Positions 6,361 through 14,431 of a stretch of 64,000 nt of DNA are shown in pieces (positions within the stretch are counted from its first letter, which is position 1; every line of letters begins with the position of its first letter). The notes beneath the pieces were generated by a model. That model was not told the origin of the DNA. It did not search any database and saw nothing but the letters and a program-made list of their open reading frames with translations. The stretch covers positions 682,001 to 746,000 of the forward strand of contig NZ_CP053840.1 of assembly GCF_013201665.1 (NCBI RefSeq), given 5' to 3'. The position numbers were made by a program, and so were the translations under genes. Source of the stretch: Arcobacter venerupis. GTDB lineage: Bacteria; Campylobacterota; Campylobacteria; Campylobacterales; Arcobacteraceae.

Positions 6361-7740
6361 TTATTTATTCTTAAAAGATAATATAATTGTAGTTCCAAAA
6401 TTCTCTTTACTTTTAATTGTGACATCTGCTTTGTGTATATCAATAATTTTTTTAACAATTGACATTCCAAGACCAGTTCCACCTGAGTTTTTATTTCTAC
6501 TTTTATCTGTTCTATAAAATTTTTCAAATATTTTATTCTGTTCTTTTTTTTCAATCCCTATTCCAAAATCTTGAATACTAATATTAAATAATTCATCTTT
6601 CTTATAAGACTTTACTAATATTTCTGAATTTTCATGACTAAATTGAATTGCATTTTTTAAAATATTTTTAATTGCAATTTTTAAAAGATTAGAATAACCC
6701 CTTATTTCAATAGTATCAATTAGATTAAATTTAATTTTGATTTGATGAAGTTTTGCAAAATTTTTAACTTCATTTATTGATTCATCTATAATTTCATCAA
6801 AATATGTAAGTGTTTGCATATCATTAGAAATTAGATCTTTTTCATTTTTTGCTAAAAAAAGTAAATCATTTATAGTTTGTTCAATTACAATAACTTCTTC
6901 AAGGGATGTATTTAAGGTTTGTTTATATTCCTCTAAACTTCTATCTTTTCGTAAGGCAATTTCCATTTCACCTTTTATAATAGTAAGGGGCGTTTTTAAT
7001 TCATGAGAAGCATCGGAACTAAATTGAGAAATTCTTTCAAAAGAAGATTCTAATCTTTCAAGAAGATTGTTTATTTCATTTATTAATTGGTTTATTTCAT
7101 CTTGATTATTTGAGCTTTTTAATCTAGCTGTTAAATCAATTGCTGTTATGCTTTTTAATTCTTCTAATACTTTTTCTATTGGTGAAAAAGATTTATATAT
7201 TAAAAAATTACCTCCAATAACTGCAAATATTAAAACAATAGGAACAATAAAAAATAAAATATAAAGTAAATTTTCTAATGTTGTCCAAAGCATATCTTTA
7301 GTTGTAGCAATTTCAACTATAATTTTTAAAGAAGCATTAAAATTTATTTTTATTCTACTAACTAAATAAATATCTTGCTCTTGAAAATTAATAACACCAT
7401 CTTTTAAAGAATCTAAATATGTATTGTCACTATGTAAATCATTTGGGAAATTTGATGTTTGTATTATTTTTGTATTATCTTTATTATCTAATATTCTAAT
7501 ATATAAAGGTTCAAAATTGTATTCTTTTTCTTCATCTAATTCATTATCTACAATGTTATTTTTTTCTTTTAAATCATCCACAATATCAAGAAGTATTACT
7601 TTTAAAGTAGCTTGATATCTGTCTAAAGTAGAAATTTCCAAAGCTTTGTAAATAGAAAAAGAAAAAATTACAAGAACGATTACTTGTATAAAAAAACTAT
7701 AAATAAGAAGTTTTTTCTTTATTGATAAATTAGTTGTCAC
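6361..7740 (-). CDS. Membrane sensor histidine kinase
   Basis: This is a 459-aa two-component sensor. The N-terminal membrane segment (about residues 8-30) and a second one (about 158-182) bracket a periplasmic domain of about 125 residues. A HAMP region follows. The phospho-acceptor is His246 in SSDASHELKTPLT. The ATP-binding N box (AIKNILKNAIQFSHEN) and G boxes (DFGIGI, GGTGLGMSIVKKI) are intact. It overlaps the upstream response regulator gene by 11 bases and is the last gene of the nine-gene - strand run. The ligand is unknown, and the operon context suggests it senses a condition linked to the redox and transport genes upstream. Confidence 0.93.
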   Translation of the reverse strand: MTTNLSIKKKLLIYSFFIQVIVLVIFSFSIYKALEISTLDRYQATLKVILLDIVDDLKEKNNIVDNELDEEKEYNFEPLYIRILDNKDNTKIIQTSNFPNDLHSDNTYLDSLKDGVINFQEQDIYLVSRIKINFNASLKIIVEIATTKDMLWTTLENLLYILFFIVPIVLIFAVIGGNFLIYKSFSPIEKVLEELKSITAIDLTARLKSSNNQDEINQLINEINNLLERLESSFERISQFSSDASHELKTPLTIIKGEMEIALRKDRSLEEYKQTLNTSLEEVIVIEQTINDLLFLAKNEKDLISNDMQTLTYFDEIIDESINEVKNFAKLHQIKIKFNLIDTIEIRGYSNLLKIAIKNILKNAIQFSHENSEILVKSYKKDELFNISIQDFGIGIEKKEQNKIFEKFYRTDKSRNKNSGGTGLGMSIVKKIIDIHKADVTIKSKENFGTTIILSFKNK

Positions 7741-8398
7741 TTATTCTAAATCCAATCCCACGTACAGTTTTAATTAGTTTTAAATCAAAATTTTTATCAA
7801 TTTTATTTCTTAATCTGTAAATATAAACATTTACAATATTACTCATATTTGAATCTTCAAAAGATGATAGAGCTGAATTTATTGCAGTTTCACTTAAAAC
7901 TCTATTTTTGTTTTTTATAAGATATTCTAAAAGTGTGAACTCTTTTGATGTAAGAACTATATTTTCATTTGCTCTTTTGGCTGTTTTATTTAATAAATCA
8001 AGTTCTAAATCAGCTATTGTAATTTTTGTTTGAATTGAGCTTTTCACTCTCAATTGCACTCTTATTCTTGCTAATAATTCAGCAAAAGAGAAAGGTTTAG
8101 CTAAATAATCATTTGCACCAATATCTAAACCTTTGATTTTATCTTCAATTGAATCTTTTGCAGTTAACATAATGATTGGAGTTTGATTATTTGAACTTCT
8201 TAAACTCTTGCAAACTTCAATTCCATCTTTAACTGGAAGCATAATATCAAGTAAGATTAAATCATACTCATTTACACTTGCTAAATATAAACCTTCATCT
8301 CCATTTGTTGCAGAATCAACTACATAACACTCTTCAATTAAGCCTTTTTTTAAAAAGTTAATTATTTTTAGGTCGTCTTCTATTATTAATATTTTCAT
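7730..8398 (-). CDS. OmpR/PhoB-family response regulator
   Basis: This 222-aa DNA-binding regulator has the receiver acidic pocket IIEDD, phospho-acceptor Asp in YDLILLDIMLP and conserved Lys in YLAKPFSFAEL. The C-terminal winged helix includes LTSKEFTLLEYLIKNKNRVLS and RLRNKIDKNFDLKLIKTVRGIGFRI. It partners with the overlapping downstream kinase. Because both sit at the 3' end of the long operon they may regulate it, which is an inference. Confidence 0.94.
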   Translation of the reverse strand: MKILIIEDDLKIINFLKKGLIEECYVVDSATNGDEGLYLASVNEYDLILLDIMLPVKDGIEVCKSLRSSNNQTPIIMLTAKDSIEDKIKGLDIGANDYLAKPFSFAELLARIRVQLRVKSSIQTKITIADLELDLLNKTAKRANENIVLTSKEFTLLEYLIKNKNRVLSETAINSALSSFEDSNMSNIVNVYIYRLRNKIDKNFDLKLIKTVRGIGFRISDN

Positions 8399-8401
8399 AA
8401 A

Positions 8402-9130
8402 TTATTCTACAATTTTTGTTATTAATTTTACTATTGTTATTTCTGCATTTGCCTTATATCTAAAATTAATTCCCCAAGTTCCAATTCCTTTATTTACATA
8501 AATTGCTGTATTTTGTTTATAAAAAAGTCCTGCTAAAAAAGGTTGAACAAGTTTTACTAAATAATGGAAAGGATAAATCTGTCCACCATGTGTATGTCCA
8601 CATAAAAAAAGTGTTGAGTTTGAGTTTAGGGCAATTTTGTAATCTTTTGGTTGATGTGCTAAAAAAATTGAGGGTTCATTTTTTAAGTAGTTTTCTATTT
8701 GTTTTTCTTCTCTTTTGATTTTAAAAAACTTAGAAAATCTATCTGGAAGTCCAGCTAAAAAAATTGTTTCATTTTTATAGATAAACTCTTTGCAATTATT
8801 ATCCATAAAAATGAAATTAAAAAGCTCTTTTTTTAAATCTTCTAAACCATAAAAGAGGTCATGATTTCCACTTATATAATAAACAACTCCTTTTAATTCA
8901 TTTAAAATCTGAAGTTTTTCTTTTATAAACTTTACTTTTGTATCAATTATATCGCCAGTTATTACCACAAAATCAAAAATCAAATTATTACACAAAAATA
9001 CAAGTTCTTTAAGTTGGGAAATAGTTGTTTTTTTATTTATATGTAAATCGCTTAAATGCAAGATTTTTAAATCATTTAGTTTTTCATTTTTTACAAATAT
9101 TTCAACTGTTTGAAAATTAGAAAGAGTCAT
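8402..9130 (-). CDS. Calcineurin-like metallophosphoesterase
   Basis: This 242-aa protein has the dinuclear metal motifs in order: LHLSDLHINK (DxH), VITGDIID (GDxxD), ISGNHDLFYG (GNHD) and LCGHTHGGQIYPFH (GHTHGG). It is closest in layout to YaeI/YkuE-type phosphodiesterases, but the usual N-terminal membrane anchor is absent. The substrate cannot be deduced. It overlaps the upstream gene by four bases and is followed three bases later by the response regulator. Confidence 0.88.
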   Translation of the reverse strand: MTLSNFQTVEIFVKNEKLNDLKILHLSDLHINKKTTISQLKELVFLCNNLIFDFVVITGDIIDTKVKFIKEKLQILNELKGVVYYISGNHDLFYGLEDLKKELFNFIFMDNNCKEFIYKNETIFLAGLPDRFSKFFKIKREEKQIENYLKNEPSIFLAHQPKDYKIALNSNSTLFLCGHTHGGQIYPFHYLVKLVQPFLAGLFYKQNTAIYVNKGIGTWGINFRYKANAEITIVKLITKIVE

Positions 9131-9582
9131 TTTAGAACCCTTTCTAACTCTTCTTTTGAAGAGATATATTTTATATCTTTTACGATTCCATCTTTTATTA
9201 AATAAACTGTTATTTTGCCCTCTTGTTCTAAAAATCTTTTGCTATTTTCATTATAAATTAATAGCACATTATATTTATAATCTCTAAGTTCTGGAATTGT
9301 AAATAGTTTTACAATAATTTGTGAAGTTTTTGAAATATTATTTATAAAAATAGCATGTTTGTTTTCTAAAAAATCGCTATTTTTTGCAGATAAAAAATCA
9401 TTTACTAACTTTGCATCTTCTTTTTGAAAGGCAATAATAATCATTGAAATTTCACTATTTATTGTATAAATTCTATCAAATTGATTTGGTAGTGAAAAAG
9501 TACTTATTTTATCATCTATTTTTAAAGTTGCTGCCTTTGCAAAAAAACAAAGTAGGGTTAATAAAATAAGTTTTCTTTTCAT
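9127..9582 (-). CDS. Secreted thioredoxin-fold protein without redox cysteines
   Basis: This 151-aa protein has a signal peptide (KRKLILLTLLCFFAKA). The mature part begins LKIDDKISTFSLPNQFDRIYTI, which resembles the opening of AhpC/TSA-type peroxiredoxins and thioredoxins. The region where the catalytic Cys would sit reads IIIAFQKEDAK, and no Cys remains in the mature chain. A binding or structural role is more likely than redox catalysis. It abuts the YceI gene directly. Family assignment rests on weak similarity. Confidence 0.55.
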   Translation of the reverse strand: MKRKLILLTLLCFFAKAATLKIDDKISTFSLPNQFDRIYTINSEISMIIIAFQKEDAKLVNDFLSAKNSDFLENKHAIFINNISKTSQIIVKLFTIPELRDYKYNVLLIYNENSKRFLEQEGKITVYLIKDGIVKDIKYISSKEELERVLK

Positions 9583-10107
9583 CTATCTAACTTCTAAATT
9601 GATATTATAAGAAATATCAATTTGATTTCTAACTGTTAAAAACATCATTTTTGGTGGTTCCATTGAAAAATCTGTAAGATTAAATGAGAAATTTCCTTTA
9701 AGAGAAATTAGATTATTAGCTTGAGTTATAGATACTTTTGCTTTTAGATTTTTTGAAATACCATTTAAAGTTAAAACACCTTGTAATTCATAATCATTCC
9801 CAACTTTTGTAATACTTCTAATATCGCAAGAAATAGTTTTATATTTCTCAATATTTAGCAGTTTATACATATGTTCATCTCTAGTTTTTTCATCACTAAT
9901 TAAAGATAAAGTATCAAAATAGATTTTGCCTTTGATTGATTCTATTGAATCATTCATTGTTAAATCAGCTCTAACATCTTTTGTAGATGGATTTATTTGA
10001 CTATCTCCAAAAACTTCTGTGTGAGCAATTATCTCACCATTTTGAACACTAAGATTACTTGCATTTGCAAATAAAACTAAACTTAAAATTATTAATAACT
10101 TAAACAT
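9583..10107 (-). CDS. YceI-family periplasmic lipid-binding protein
   Basis: This 174-aa protein has a Sec signal peptide ending near ANA. Strand motifs of the YceI lipocalin-like fold are visible: STKDVRADLTMNDSIESIKGKIYF, KYKTISCDIRSI, and ELQGVLTLNGISKNLKAKV (the positions of typical YceI motifs). YceI proteins bind polyisoprenoids or quinone-like lipids and often sit beside cytochrome b561-like proteins. Here the neighbour is an oxidase-like membrane protein, consistent with a quinone-linked role, which is inferred. Confidence 0.82.
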   Translation of the reverse strand: MFKLLIILSLVLFANASNLSVQNGEIIAHTEVFGDSQINPSTKDVRADLTMNDSIESIKGKIYFDTLSLISDEKTRDEHMYKLLNIEKYKTISCDIRSITKVGNDYELQGVLTLNGISKNLKAKVSITQANNLISLKGNFSFNLTDFSMEPPKMMFLTVRNQIDISYNINLEVR

Positions 10108-11068
10108 ATTCTATCTCCTTGTTATTTGGTTTATATTCGCCAATCATTATTTTAAGTATTACTACTAATAAAACAATTGGAACAAATAAAATTAGATTTG
10201 CCAAAGCTACAAAAAGCCCAGCACCAGAAGCCATCCAACCAATAAAAATCATATAAAATGTAATAGTTCTAAAATCTTTTTTTATAATTGTTTGTAAAAT
10301 TACTACATTGTAATAAGATATTACAACTGGATAAATCATTGATAAAATATATCCCTCCCTTAAAAAATAAAATAAATATGAAAGTGCAAATAAAGTTATG
10401 ATTAATAGGCTTTTTTGATTTTTATCAAATTTGAAATATAAAGCTGAAAAAACTCCGATTATATGGAAAAGTGCAATTTGAAAGGTAAACCCATCTCTCC
10501 AAATAGAAAGAGTAACATCTCTAGAAAGTGATTCGAAAAGTGTAGAATCTAAAAATACCCATAAAATCATCATTAATAATGGAAATTCCATATTAGAATT
10601 TTGAGTAAACTTTTCTTTTGGTAAAAATCTTGAAGCAACTAAAGTAATAGTTGTTAATATAATTGCAATAATTCCTCTTTCATTAACTTCATAATTAAAC
10701 AATAAAGTTCCAGTTACATAAGAAAGACAAAGTGCTAATCCTAACTCTAATAGTGTTGTTTTTTTGATTTCATTTATAATTAAAGGAGCTAATGAACCAA
10801 CTGCAATTCCTAAAATAAATAGTGTTAAAAAATTGAAATTTGGATATAAGAAACTCATTAATAATTGGATTATTAAAAACAAAGAAATTCTATTTTTAAA
10901 ATCAATTTTTATATATGAAACTAATAATGAACCAATTATTCCTCCAATTGGAAGAGGTGCAATTGAAAATAAATTCGAAGAAAAATATTCAACAATTCCA
11001 GTTTGAGCAATAAGTAAATAATAACAAAGTTCACTTGCTATAAAAAATATTAAAATTAATCTTTGCAT
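10100..11068 (-). CDS. Multi-pass membrane protein of unknown function
   Basis: This 322-aa, highly hydrophobic protein has about ten predicted membrane spans. The short polar loops (for example SLSRDVTLSIWRDGF and KKDFRTITF) carry few motifs. The overall pattern resembles half of a major-facilitator transporter, but no signature was recognised. It overlaps the oxidase-like gene upstream by 13 bases and yceI downstream by eight, so it is made with them and may form part of the same membrane assembly. Confidence 0.7.
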   Translation of the reverse strand: MQRLILIFFIASELCYYLLIAQTGIVEYFSSNLFSIAPLPIGGIIGSLLVSYIKIDFKNRISLFLIIQLLMSFLYPNFNFLTLFILGIAVGSLAPLIINEIKKTTLLELGLALCLSYVTGTLLFNYEVNERGIIAIILTTITLVASRFLPKEKFTQNSNMEFPLLMMILWVFLDSTLFESLSRDVTLSIWRDGFTFQIALFHIIGVFSALYFKFDKNQKSLLIITLFALSYLFYFLREGYILSMIYPVVISYYNVVILQTIIKKDFRTITFYMIFIGWMASGAGLFVALANLILFVPIVLLVVILKIMIGEYKPNNKEIEYV

Positions 11069-12630
11069 AGGGTCTCCTTTTCATAAAAATAGATTAAATA
11101 CGTAAATACAAAAGTCAAATCAAATAGACAAATTGCTAAGGCTTCAAAACCTAGCTTTCCACTTGCATATAAAGCAAAGAACATGGCACTTGCAAATACT
11201 CTAATAATTACACTTAGGTTTGTTAAAACTATTTGACTTGACGGATTTTTTAAAGCCATAAAATGAATAACACCCGTCATGCAAACAAAAGTAAATACAA
11301 CATATTCATAAACTCCATTAAAGCTAAACCCAATTAGAGGATAAATGAAACTAGCAAGTAGTATTAAAAATATCCCACCAACTCCATCACTTAAGATTCC
11401 TGCAATATTGTAAAGTTCAAGTTTTGAATATATATTTTTTATTTTGATAAAAGCAAAAATAAACGCCAATGCAAATAATCCAAAAACTGTTCGTAAAACC
11501 CATAGATTCTCAGTTGGGATATGTATAAATCCAGCTTCAGTAAAACCAGAAATTGATAAAACTGTAAATATTCCTAAAAGTGCAAATAAGTAAAAATCTA
11601 AATAGATAGCTTTTTGAAGCTCTTTAATATAAGTTATAAACATAGAAATAACCATAAAAAATACAGCAATTCCCATTGCCACATGAGCGTGAGCTACAAT
11701 TAAATCATTTCTATGAAAAAGCCATCTAATTTCAGGAATAAAGATAATATTCCCCTCAACATCCACAAATAAAAAGGCTAAGATAGAAATAAATAAAGCC
11801 TTTTTTGCATGGGGCAAGATGTCACTATCTTTAAACCATCTATATAAAAGTGGAACATATAAAAGTGTTAAGTATTGTAAAAACCACTCTTCATTATATG
11901 TTAGTGGTCCTAGAATAATTCTGTGTAATACAGAAGCAAAATAGAAAACAGTTGGAATAATCCAAAGCATATTCCATCTAGCTTTAAATTCACCAATATT
12001 TAGTAGTTTAATTATCAAATAATAAATTGGAAGTAAAGCTAAACTCATTCCTAAAGTATTGTCTCCATGAGGTCCAGATACAGTACTCTCAACTTGTCCA
12101 ATAATTGGATTCATTAAAATCAATAAAGTAATAGGCGCAATAATCACAACTCTTAAACATACTTTTATCCATAATGGAAGAGTGTTTTTATAAAGTCTAA
12201 TAAATTTGTATAAAGCAATAATATAAAATATACCACTCATTGCAAGTAAGAAATTTAACTCATATGCAAAATCATAAAAAGCCAAACCTCTGCTTTTTCC
12301 AAGTAATAAAGAAACCACCATAAATATAAGAAATATGAACCAAACAATTGTATAAATATTTAAATATCTTAATCCCTCTTTATCAAATCCAACTTCTTTG
12401 TTTATTAGTAAAAAAGGCAGATACGAAAGCATTAAAGGTACAAAACCATAAAGCATCAAAGAAATATGAATTGATCTCATATTTACTGGATTTAAAGTCT
12501 CTGAATTTATACTAAAACCCAGAAGATTTATAGAATAAATTATTCCAAATAAAAGTCCAAGTGCAAAAAATGCAATAGAAATTTTAAAGGTTCTTATTAT
12601 AAAGTTATCAAAATTATTTAAGTTTTCCAT
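11056..12630 (-). CDS. Divergent heme-copper oxidase subunit I-like protein
   Basis: This 524-aa protein has about 12 to 14 membrane spans. Residues in the positions of heme and copper ligands in cbb3/NorB-type subunit I are recognisable: His55 in RSIHISLMLYGF (low-spin heme), His188 in SGPHGDNTLGM (first CuB His), and His314/His316 in IVAHAHVAMG (heme ligands). The place where canonical enzymes have the CuB His-His pair reads ILGPLTYNEEW (residues 239-249), so two of three CuB ligands appear absent. No subunit II or cytochrome subunit lies nearby. It is probably not an oxygen reductase; a heme-binding or quinone-linked role is inferred. Confidence 0.7.
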   Translation of the reverse strand: MENLNNFDNFIIRTFKISIAFFALGLLFGIIYSINLLGFSINSETLNPVNMRSIHISLMLYGFVPLMLSYLPFLLINKEVGFDKEGLRYLNIYTIVWFIFLIFMVVSLLLGKSRGLAFYDFAYELNFLLAMSGIFYIIALYKFIRLYKNTLPLWIKVCLRVVIIAPITLLILMNPIIGQVESTVSGPHGDNTLGMSLALLPIYYLIIKLLNIGEFKARWNMLWIIPTVFYFASVLHRIILGPLTYNEEWFLQYLTLLYVPLLYRWFKDSDILPHAKKALFISILAFLFVDVEGNIIFIPEIRWLFHRNDLIVAHAHVAMGIAVFFMVISMFITYIKELQKAIYLDFYLFALLGIFTVLSISGFTEAGFIHIPTENLWVLRTVFGLFALAFIFAFIKIKNIYSKLELYNIAGILSDGVGGIFLILLASFIYPLIGFSFNGVYEYVVFTFVCMTGVIHFMALKNPSSQIVLTNLSVIIRVFASAMFFALYASGKLGFEALAICLFDLTFVFTYLIYFYEKETLCKD

Positions 12631-13237
12631 CTTTTACCTCGTAAGTTATATCTGCTTTTAAAGCTAAGTTTTTATCATGTGTTGCCACGATTATTGTTGT
12701 TCCTTTTTTTGCTAAAATTGAAAAAAGCTCAAAAACATTTAATGAGTTTTTTGAATCTAAGTTTCCAGTTGGTTCATCTGCAAAAATTACCTTTGGATTA
12801 TTTATTAAAGCTCTTGCAATTGCAACTCTTTGTCTTTGTCCTCCTGAGATTTCATTTGGATATTTGTCTATTAGATTTTCAATTCCTAAACTTTTTAATA
12901 AATCTAAAATCTCTTTTTTTGAAGCTTTTTCATTAGCAAGATTTATATTTTCTTTTACGCTTAAATAATTGATTAAATAATGAAATTGAAAAATAAAACC
13001 AATATTGTTTTTTCTAAAATCATCTATATTTTTTATATCTTTATAGTTTATGTTTTCATAAACAATATCACCACTAGTTGGTTTTAAAAGCGTTGATAAA
13101 ACAGATAAAAGCGTAGATTTTCCACTTCCACTCTCTCCTATGATTGCTACAAATTCACCTTTTTTTATCTCTAAATTGATATTGTCTAAGGCTAAATCTT
13201 TATTATAATAGTGAGTTAAATTTCTGATTTTTATCAT
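12614..13237 (-). CDS. ABC transporter ATPase, LolD/MacB type
   Basis: This 207-aa ATPase has Walker A GESGSGKST, Q-loop GFIFQFHYLI, signature SGGQRQRVAIARAL, Walker B KVIFADEPTGNLDS and H-loop VATHD. The size and the DEPTGNLDS sequence are typical of the LolD/MacB/FtsE branch, whose partners are FtsX-like permeases. The permease is the overlapping upstream gene. It overlaps the oxidase-like gene downstream by 17 bases. Confidence 0.93.
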   Translation of the reverse strand: MIKIRNLTHYYNKDLALDNINLEIKKGEFVAIIGESGSGKSTLLSVLSTLLKPTSGDIVYENINYKDIKNIDDFRKNNIGFIFQFHYLINYLSVKENINLANEKASKKEILDLLKSLGIENLIDKYPNEISGGQRQRVAIARALINNPKVIFADEPTGNLDSKNSLNVFELFSILAKKGTTIIVATHDKNLALKADITYEVKDGKLK

Positions 13238-14316
13238 ATTTTATTTCCTTGGATTAACTCAACTGGATCTGTTTTTGCTGCATTTAAAGCTGGAATTATT
13301 GAGCCAAAAATAGCCATAAAAATAGAAGTAATAAAGATATAAAATGCCAACTCATTTGAAATTTCACCATTTACATAACCTTGTAAACTTGAAGCACTTT
13401 TTATAAAATATAAAACTATATTTGAAAGAATAAAAGCACTAATAAAACTAAAAACTCCCAAAATAAAACTCTCAATCATTATTGAATAAACGATTTTTGA
13501 AGTACTAATTCCTAAAGCTCTTTTGATTCCAAATTCACTTTTTCTTTGATTTATTGTGATACTCATTAAACTTACAATTCCCAATAATCCCATAGAAAAA
13601 GCAATAAAGGAAATAACATTTGATGAGGTTTTTATGATTTTAAATTGATTATAGTTATCCACAAAATTTTGAGTTGATTTAGCATCTATTTGTTCATCTA
13701 AAGCTTTTATATTTTTTATTATCTCATCTACATTTGAGTTTAGTGTTGTATTTACCATAATCATTGAAGCTGATTTATTAAAAATCTCTCCTGCATCATT
13801 AATTGTTAAAACAACTCCACCATTTTCAAAACCAATTTCACTTTTAAAAACACCAGAAATTTTAAAACTTTTGTTTGCAATTTGAATTTCATTTTTATTT
13901 AGTAATTGTTCAAAAATAGATTTCCCAACTATTACTTCACCTTTAGATGGATAATTCCCTTCTATTAATTTGTAATTTTTGAATCTATTATCGCTCGCTC
14001 CATATATGGCAACAATTGGCAGTTTTTCAACTGGACTTGCTCCAACAATTAAGGCCGATGATTCTTTTACGTCTTTGATTTGATTTATTCTTTCTATTAA
14101 ATTTATATTTACATTTGAAAAAAATGTATCAGAAATTTTTGCTTGAGTAATAATAATATCTCCATCACTTTTTAGCATTGATGAATACATTGTTATTATT
14201 CCATTTGAAATAGAACTAATTAAAAAAATTGATATTATTGAAAAAATTAGACTTAGATAAATAAGTATAGTTTTTAATTTATTAGCCATTAAAGCTTTAA
14301 ATGCAAATGCAATCAA
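13234..14316 (-). CDS. ABC transporter permease, FtsX/MacB-like
   Basis: This protein of about 360 aa has one N-terminal span, a large periplasmic domain of about 200 residues and three C-terminal spans, the MacB/LolC layout. The C-terminal MSITINQRKSEFGIKRALG and SIIPALNAAKTDPVELIQG are FtsX-domain hallmarks. The TTG at 14316 is preferred: AAAAGGATAA lies just upstream and the resulting start, (M)IAFAFKALMANKLKT, matches the usual FtsX opening. The frame extends to another TTG at 14376. It is the first gene of the - strand operon. Substrate is unknown; mechanotransmission or export from the membrane is typical of the family. Confidence 0.88.
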   Translation of the reverse strand: MIAFAFKALMANKLKTILIYLSLIFSIISIFLISSISNGIITMYSSMLKSDGDIIITQAKISDTFFSNVNINLIERINQIKDVKESSALIVGASPVEKLPIVAIYGASDNRFKNYKLIEGNYPSKGEVIVGKSIFEQLLNKNEIQIANKSFKISGVFKSEIGFENGGVVLTINDAGEIFNKSASMIMVNTTLNSNVDEIIKNIKALDEQIDAKSTQNFVDNYNQFKIIKTSSNVISFIAFSMGLLGIVSLMSITINQRKSEFGIKRALGISTSKIVYSIMIESFILGVFSFISAFILSNIVLYFIKSASSLQGYVNGEISNELAFYIFITSIFMAIFGSIIPALNAAKTDPVELIQGNKI

Positions 14317-14431
14317 GATTATCCTTTTATATTTTTGAAAGTTTAATCTTTGAATATGAATTAACAATGAATTCAATATGAACTTTTCGTCATAATTGGA
14401 TAGAATAACGAAAAAGAATGATTGGTAGAAA

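Follow-up and report, generated by a model that had tools for sequence, protein, structure and literature searches.

Most solved YceI lipocalins hold an isoprenoid, for example octaprenylphosphate or ubiquinone-8, and in Burkholderia lipid peroxidation is raised in mutants of the YceI lipocalin BcnA and of the cytochrome b561 LcoA; lipid-peroxide defence is experimentally supported there and re-reduction of BcnA-bound quinone has been proposed (passages of PMC9113575). Haem-copper oxidases (HCOs) carry as their signature a histidine sextet with three residues on CuB or FeB, and in the putative NO dismutase (NOD) of Methylomirabilis, an altered quinol-dependent nitric oxide reductase (qNOR), one coordinating histidine is changed to asparagine and the others are kept (passages of PMC3413370). 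Here we describe a nine-gene cluster of Arcobacter venerupis, located in a stretch of 64,000 nt (contig NZ_CP053840.1, positions 682,001 to 746,000; the window, in which coordinates are counted unless stated otherwise) of a 3.2-Mb genome, that joins a YceI gene to the gene of an HCO-fold protein in which, by alignment, the CuB/FeB histidine pair of transmembrane helix 7 (TM7) is absent. Our tentative reading is a copper-free, quinol-driven haem redox module that may serve a quinone or lipid carried by YceI and would not be a respiratory oxidase; we regard this as possible rather than probable.

The closest precedent is the BcnA-LcoA detoxification of lipid-peroxyl radicals in Burkholderia (passages of PMC9113575). 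In both systems a YceI gene lies beside that of an inner-membrane protein, whose di-haem nature is here suggested by its ligands, and a YceI gene stands near the oxidase-like gene in most of the 102 distinct Campylobacterota loci that we compared. In contrast to LcoA, the protein studied here has 12 + 4 helices in an HCO fold and belongs with COX1, not with the cytochrome b561 family; genes for ATP-binding cassette (ABC) and major facilitator superfamily (MFS) proteins, a phosphodiesterase and, in some lineages, a two-component system are added, and the function is a predicted one only. NOD resembles it in the HCO fold and in changed ligands of the non-haem metal, but alters one histidine, whereas here the TM7 pair is lost. 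The permease with MacB core and FtsX domain and the LolD-like ATPase recall MacB and LolCDE; however, the ATPase is encoded on a separate gene, unlike in MacB, no adaptor gene is present in the operon and the scores are under the curated cut-offs. As the preliminary description of this DNA had suspected, no named pathway for the gene combination was found among the listed titles and abstract openings of open-licence PMC papers, nor was a copper-less, family-wide conserved HCO branch, and subscription papers may describe either; passages of a 2026 Sulfurospirillum genome paper (PMC13209400) do not mention the cluster. Taken singly, the components belong to familiar types; what was not seen in the literature searched is their assembly in one cluster and the copper-less HCO branch.

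An oxidase-like protein without the TM7 histidine pair

The oxidase-like gene was annotated as follows:

11056..12630, minus strand: haem-copper-oxidase-fold protein, 524 aa; 12 canonical and 4 further C-terminal helices; predicted haem ligands kept, TM7 CuB/FeB His pair absent by alignment

On the single 524-aa sequence the Pfam family COX1 scored 17.5 bits, under its cut-off of 34.8; across the family it was matched by 23 of 26 members at E ≤ 0.1, the best at 5.6e-12. The structure model (predicted local distance difference test, pLDDT, 85.8) superimposes with residues 5-396 on the cytochrome c-dependent nitric oxide reductase (cNOR; 4xyd; Z 26.5, root-mean-square deviation (rmsd) 3.8, 362 aligned) and on the cbb3 oxidase (9g6b; Z 25.2, rmsd 4.0, 367 aligned), and Foldseek ranked cbb3 first (E 3.3e-5). 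The model places the extra C-terminal helices at residues 403-432, 441-461, 463-489 and 495-514. Nearly all structural matches end at about residue 400, and the one caa3 match that spans residues 1-524 has an rmsd of 18.6; because the matches barely cover this region, we do not claim a new fold for residues 403-514.

In three MAFFT modes, the 12 nitric oxide reductase (NOR) and 8 ccoN sequences taken from related genomes all have histidines opposite H55, H306, H314 and H316; opposite D120 stands a glutamate, which we take to be the calcium-site residue, in 11 of the 12 and 7 of the 8. Because they align with NOR and ccoN histidines, H55 and H316 are predicted to ligate a low-spin haem and H314 to be the proximal ligand of a second haem; the mapping used sequence and profile alignment plus the helix order of the model. 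Among 101 distinct sequences, H55 is histidine in 100 (one has a gap), and H188, D190, R237, Y245, E248, H306, H314, H316, H456, R477 and D504 are invariant, as is D415, which like H456, R477 and D504 lies in the C-terminal helices (the loci obtained by pattern scan were partly selected for H188, D190 and E248; the 39 sequences from whole-genome protein searches agree on the histidines, D190, R237 and E248).

Between residues 212 and 300 none of the alignment columns is at least 50% histidine in the 101 sequences and HH occurs in one of them, so that, judged from the alignment, the TM7 CuB/FeB pair has been lost family-wide. MAFFT aligns the first CuB/FeB histidine position with D190, two residues from the invariant H188. 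A profile alignment with cNOR (E 2.4e-5, probability 75.5) lets the HH pair fall on H236-R237, which is consistent with the HCO helix order at the end of TM7; the profile alignment with ccoN (E 1.2e-4, probability 55.2) and the MAFFT alignments put it elsewhere or in a gap. Because of this disagreement Arg237 in place of the pair is only a proposal, based on the cNOR profile alignment and the helix order of the model. Compared with CcoN of cbb3 and NorB of cNOR, the protein thus shares the fold, the four aligned histidines and an acidic residue at the glutamate position, but differs by the missing pair, by the invariant arginine at or near its proposed place, by the further C-terminal helices and by the lack of a cytochrome c subunit in the operon.

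The gene had initially been taken for a divergent oxidase subunit, which as a catalytic assignment is not supported. Of the features of HCO catalytic subunit I, the 12-helix fold is present and the bis-His low-spin haem site and the proximal histidine are present by alignment; the three CuB/FeB histidines are not. CXXCH is absent from all nine operon proteins, so no cytochrome c donor is encoded inside the operon. We rejected a working oxidase on these two grounds, the missing CuB pair and the missing cytochrome c gene.

Could the protein instead be a divergent, quinol-using reductase of NO or another nitrogen oxide with a non-canonical metal site? Both the Z score and the profile alignment favour cNOR over cbb3/ccoN, and the invariant H188, D190, Y245 and E248 could bind a metal in another way, but with the FeB pair gone and no CXXCH in the operon (no search for a NorC gene outside the operon was made) the protein conforms neither to cNOR nor to qNOR, and it has 524 aa versus 744 aa for the qNOR-like protein of genome G003. 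Moreover, some genomes with the operon also have a cNOR- or qNOR-like protein and others have neither. Within the genus, 9 of the 18 genomes that have the operon and 7 of the 13 that lack it contain PF02239, a family that includes NirS but is not NirS alone; the A. venerupis genome does not contain it. As PF02239 does not track the operon, we rejected an NO reductase in a denitrification chain. In the wider form, too, we consider this explanation distinctly unlikely. A further HCO-like family of 545-570 aa with the TM10 motif LHN(T/S)QW...H(F/V)H was seen in four genomes (L203-L206); an hhalign comparison with it was not significant (E 0.21).

Co-inheritance of the core genes

Four genes around the oxidase-like gene form a core with it:

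13234..14316, minus strand: ABC permease, MacB periplasmic core and FtsX, 360 aa; Pfam FtsX 58.7 bits, MacB_PCD 53.4 bits (380-aa frame)
12614..13237, minus strand: ABC ATPase, LolD/MacB type; ABC_tran 131 bits; LolD 205.1 bits, under the cut-off of 307.75
10100..11068, minus strand: polytopic membrane protein, 322 aa, predicted MFS fold; model pLDDT 91.9
9583..10107, minus strand: periplasmic YceI lipocalin, divergent operon type; Pfam YceI 65 bits; profile matches E. coli YceI 1y0g at 4.7e-14

The Pfam matches agree with the MacB-like ABC pair and the YceI protein named in the preliminary description, and the ATPase contains Walker A, signature, Walker B and H-loop. An alternative TTG frame of the permease (13234-14376) runs into the repeat box described below; TTG also stands at 14316, and since most relatives have about 360 aa and an AAAGGA site precedes 14316, the start is most likely there. 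The 322-aa protein, previously an unknown membrane protein, indeed belongs to no sequence family and its members have no Pfam family in common, but its model matches EfpA (8ufd; Z 25.3, rmsd 3.1, 298 aligned), from which we confidently predict an MFS fold. Two YceI genes of equal score and length, likely a recent duplication, lie in the A. venerupis genome at G000:C1:166047-166532 and 168466-168951 (contig coordinates).

Among 397 sampled genomes of the phylum the oxidase-like gene occurs in 60, covering 18 of 68 Campylobacterota genera. The MFS-fold gene and the permease (E ≤ 1e-30) were found in 60 genomes each, and the three genome lists, compared by eye, are identical. Neighbourhoods were collected from genome searches (40) and then with hidden Markov models (40 + 80); 119 of the 120 loci contained an oxidase-like frame (L149 was dropped), and collapsing 17 that had been fetched twice left 102 distinct loci. 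In this neighbourhood search, which had been proposed beforehand for the 524-aa protein, the core of permease, ATPase, oxidase-like, MFS-fold and YceI genes is complete at 84 of the 102. The remaining 18 are without one to four core genes, some at a contig edge and some missed by open reading frame (ORF) picking: the permease and YceI of G242, absent from its stretch L070 because of ORF picking, were recovered in genome-wide searches. In some Sulfurovum-like loci the MFS-YceI pair precedes the permease. Within the genus, 18 of 31 genomes have the oxidase-like gene, and each of the 16 neighbourhoods read among them shows the nine genes in one and the same arrangement, with the MFS gene split in two pieces in one (L082); unlinking in close relatives, which would have spoken against the cluster, was therefore not seen.

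A scan of the genome collection with two peptide patterns gave 106 loci, of which 80 were viewed; their titles are Campylobacterota except for a few generic ones ('bacterium', 'Proteobacteria bacterium'). As the scan used the motif GPHGDNTL and is blind to relatives without it, restriction to the phylum is not established. Among the matches listed, from which the own genome was possibly left out, the oxidase-like gene has its closest named relatives in Aliarcobacter metagenome-assembled genomes (MAGs). No plasmid matched at E ≤ 0.1, and a plasmid-borne gene was rejected. Signs of decay are an oxidase-like gene in three pieces in G393 (L072) and an MFS gene in two in G084. Three copies of the oxidase-like gene in the Sulfurospirillum MAG UBA1314, each on a contig of its own (L109-L111), probably come from mixed strains.

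The constant company of oxidase-like gene and permease in the 397 genomes could also be explained by a haem-based redox or gas sensor, or a regulatory subunit, that controls the ABC transporter and is not an enzyme. MacB/FtsX-type ABC proteins act as mechanical couplers, and loss of CuB would be expected to leave the sixth position of the second haem open. However, the pocket and the C-terminal helices are extremely conserved, which, like the tie to YceI and phosphodiesterases, suits a substrate pathway at least equally well, and neither Pfam nor NCBIfam scans gave a signalling domain in the 524-aa protein. We regard such a sensor as unlikely. As the gene set is dominated by transporters, a lipocalin and phosphodiesterases, it might also serve to traffic lipids or quinones, with the oxidase fold retained as a mere scaffold or channel that has lost its redox activity; for a pure scaffold the three axial histidines and the acid D120, kept family-wide, would be needless, which makes this explanation quite improbable.

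An exchangeable phosphodiesterase and a 151-aa protein

Downstream of the core the operon continues with two smaller genes:

9127..9582, minus strand: 151-aa protein, signal-like N-terminus, no Cys after residue 12, fold not established; no family above cut-off
8402..9130, minus strand: calcineurin-like metallophosphoesterase, YaeI/LpxG-like; Metallophos 53.6 bits; YaeI 86.3 and LpxG 77.3 bits, under cut-offs of 188 and 350

The metal-site motifs of the phosphoesterase are conserved across 25 sequences. The enzyme named in the preliminary description is present, but it is not a fixed part: in other lineages a hydrolase of the metallo-beta-lactamase (MBL) fold (Lactamase_B_2) takes its place. 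At the 102 loci we counted the phosphoesterase 54 times, the MBL-fold enzyme 30 times, neither 18 times and both never (375-aa paralogues left out). Genome-wide counts were made in 37 hand-chosen genomes, 30 with and 7 without the operon. The former contain the short phosphoesterase (≥186 bits) in 18 cases, the MBL-fold enzyme (≥233 bits) in 11, neither in one (G392) and both in none; the seven operon-less genomes contain neither, six having only a phosphoesterase paralogue of 368-388 aa. Weaker matches (≤128 bits) to more distant MBL relatives were obtained in G231, G342 and G390, and one more in G259. G033 carries its short phosphoesterase gene on a different contig, together with a YceI gene.

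The 151-aa protein had been described as a cysteine-free thioredoxin fold. Thioredoxin-type cysteines are indeed lacking (CXXC is absent in 71 of 71 distinct sequences, and 8 of the 71 carry some cysteine after residue 25), but the fold was not supported, as no relevant Pfam match and no match in the Protein Data Bank was obtained; the family as a whole has no Pfam assignment. With members in 116 of the 397 genomes, operon-less ones included, it is more widespread than the operon (60 genomes), so we rejected it as a diagnostic part. Thirteen copies outside the operon show no common partner set in the stretches read. A paralogue in the A. venerupis genome (L219:9291-9746) lies near the chromosome end beside purN-like and ruvC-like genes (named by eye).

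A possible role in quinone or lipid reduction

An envelope redox or quinone-lipid handling system had been suggested for the cluster, and with the published analogue (passages of PMC9113575) it is also the best reading here, although a working oxidase as its component is unsupported. We envisage an inner-membrane, copper-free di-haem redox module with its own carrier and transporters. Menaquinol would reduce haem b, and the electron would pass to the second haem; a quinol seems the likely donor because the operon has no cytochrome c gene. The second haem would then re-reduce an oxidised isoprenoid quinone or a lipid (hydro)peroxide held by periplasmic YceI, and not O2. The ABC and MFS proteins would handle the lipophilic substrate or product by extracting or flipping it; trimming of a lipid phosphodiester would fall to the phosphodiesterase. 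More specifically, the invariant Arg237, if it replaces the TM7 pair as proposed, could together with H188 and D190 line a polar pocket above the second haem that resembles that of peroxidases. The protein would then use quinol to reduce lipid hydroperoxides or YceI-bound quinone, and the superfamily would have a third functional branch besides those that reduce O2 and NO; we consider this particular version rather unlikely.

Several observations weigh against the redox module. The link to lipids comes from family resemblance (YceI, LolD/MacB, LpxG/YaeI, MBL), with NCBIfam scores that are under curated cut-offs or families that are generic, and haem binding is predicted from aligned ligands. 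At least one YceI gene is present in 37 of 37 genomes checked, including the seven without the operon; YceI alone is not diagnostic because further YceI genes are common with or without it. The system is lacking in 337 of the 397 genomes. Finally, on the HCO tree the swap of phosphoesterase and MBL-fold enzyme needs only two state changes, and its sign test cannot reach significance; we therefore rejected it as strong proof of a shared reaction and take the exchange as merely suggestive of a common role of the partner.

If the redox module is real, a family found in 18 of 68 Campylobacterota genera would show the HCO fold working without its metal centre. It would also connect the respiratory quinol pool with the repair of envelope lipids, by a path that the literature searched does not describe. 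The gene set is compact, all-or-none and probably self-regulated, and in a laboratory strain it is amenable to deletion and assay.

Operon layout

All nine genes are read from the minus strand, the first beginning at 14316 and the last ending at 6361, and are joined by six overlaps, one abutment and one gap of 3 nt, in agreement with the tightly packed array reported before. The junctions compare as follows with the 102 loci (distances in nt):

permease/ABC ATPase: overlap 4; median -4 across loci; ≤20 nt in 87 of 88 neighbouring pairs
ABC ATPase/oxidase-like: overlap 17; median -17; ≤20 nt in 91 of 91
oxidase-like/MFS-fold: overlap 13; median -13; ≤20 nt in 77 of 81
MFS-fold/YceI: overlap 8; median -8; ≤20 nt in 66 of 77
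YceI/151-aa: abutment (0); median +1; ≤20 nt in 33 of 33
151-aa/phosphoesterase: overlap 4; median -4; ≤20 nt in 29 of 30
phosphoesterase/response regulator: gap 3; median +4; ≤20 nt in 25 of 30
response regulator/histidine kinase: overlap 11; median -11; ≤20 nt in 32 of 32

Pairs were counted only when the genes neighbour each other; those excluded through rearrangement or ORF picking are, in junction order, 3/91, 3/94, 14/95, 13/90, 34/67, 10/40, 2/32 and 0/32. The figures use longest-ORF starts, a choice biased toward overlap. A scan for the sigma-70 consensus only gave 52 promoter-like sites in the operon region versus 63.1 ± 8.4 in shuffles, that is, no enrichment. The conserved cluster and its short gaps support the earlier expectation of one transcript, which the nine genes very probably form.

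A two-component system and its putative binding site

The last two genes and a repeat upstream of the operon concern regulation:

7730..8398, minus strand: OmpR-type response regulator, CopR/HprR-like; TIGR01387 255.9 bits, cut-off 279.2
6361..7740, minus strand: histidine kinase, CopS-like, no cysteine; TIGR01386 244.5 bits, cut-off 292.55
14356..14382, minus strand: TTCAT-N6-TTCAT-N6-TTCAT box with a period of 11 bp, a candidate site for the regulator ahead of the operon; 14-15 of 15 matches across loci

Membership in CopRS, CusRS or HprRS is not supported at the curated cut-offs (HprR 236, below 353). Because MFS-fold proteins include the copper importer CcoA and the two-component system is CopRS-like, the operon could serve the cbb3 oxidase by assisting its assembly or by delivering metal or haem to it. 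This is highly unlikely: a full-score COX1 match exists in 31 of 31 genomes tested and the ccoN-type motif HFTDW in 29 of 31, including all seven operon-less genomes, so cbb3 does not need the operon, and kinase and regulator both score under the heavy-metal cut-offs.

Response regulator and kinase (both >300 bits) are linked to the operon in 32 of the 102 loci, mainly in Arcobacteraceae. In all 30 distinct loci that have both them and the permease, the box matches at 14-15 of 15 positions, 62-73 nt before the permease start; single-base shuffles of the same upstream stretches reached a maximum of 13. Of 65 distinct loci without the pair, seven score 13-14 at 61-71 nt, 13 being within the shuffle range: L075, where the contig ends before the two-component genes, L054 (Sulfurospirillum, truncated kinase), L112, L057, L096, L098 and L103. 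A repeat with at most one mismatch in the window was reached in 12 of 100 shuffles; a single TTCAT site alone proves little, and conservation across loci carries the argument. The box fits a direct-repeat site with 11-bp spacing, a type bound by OmpR-type regulators. Since the box is present in 30 of 30 loci with the two-component genes and its exact triple form occurs once in the whole genome, these genes probably constitute a dedicated, self-controlling circuit acting through the putative TTCAT site. In Arcobacteraceae and a few others the system would sense the need for the redox module and activate its own operon via the repeats. The 'own sensor' of the preliminary description thus stands for these lineages, but it is not part of the core.

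Two one-mismatch sites elsewhere in the genome lie near a type-I-secretion-like ABC/adaptor pair and a TonB-receptor-like gene; we make no case for a regulon beyond the operon from them. In the Sulfurospirillum loci L054 and L055 the kinase is a truncated remnant, a sign of decay.

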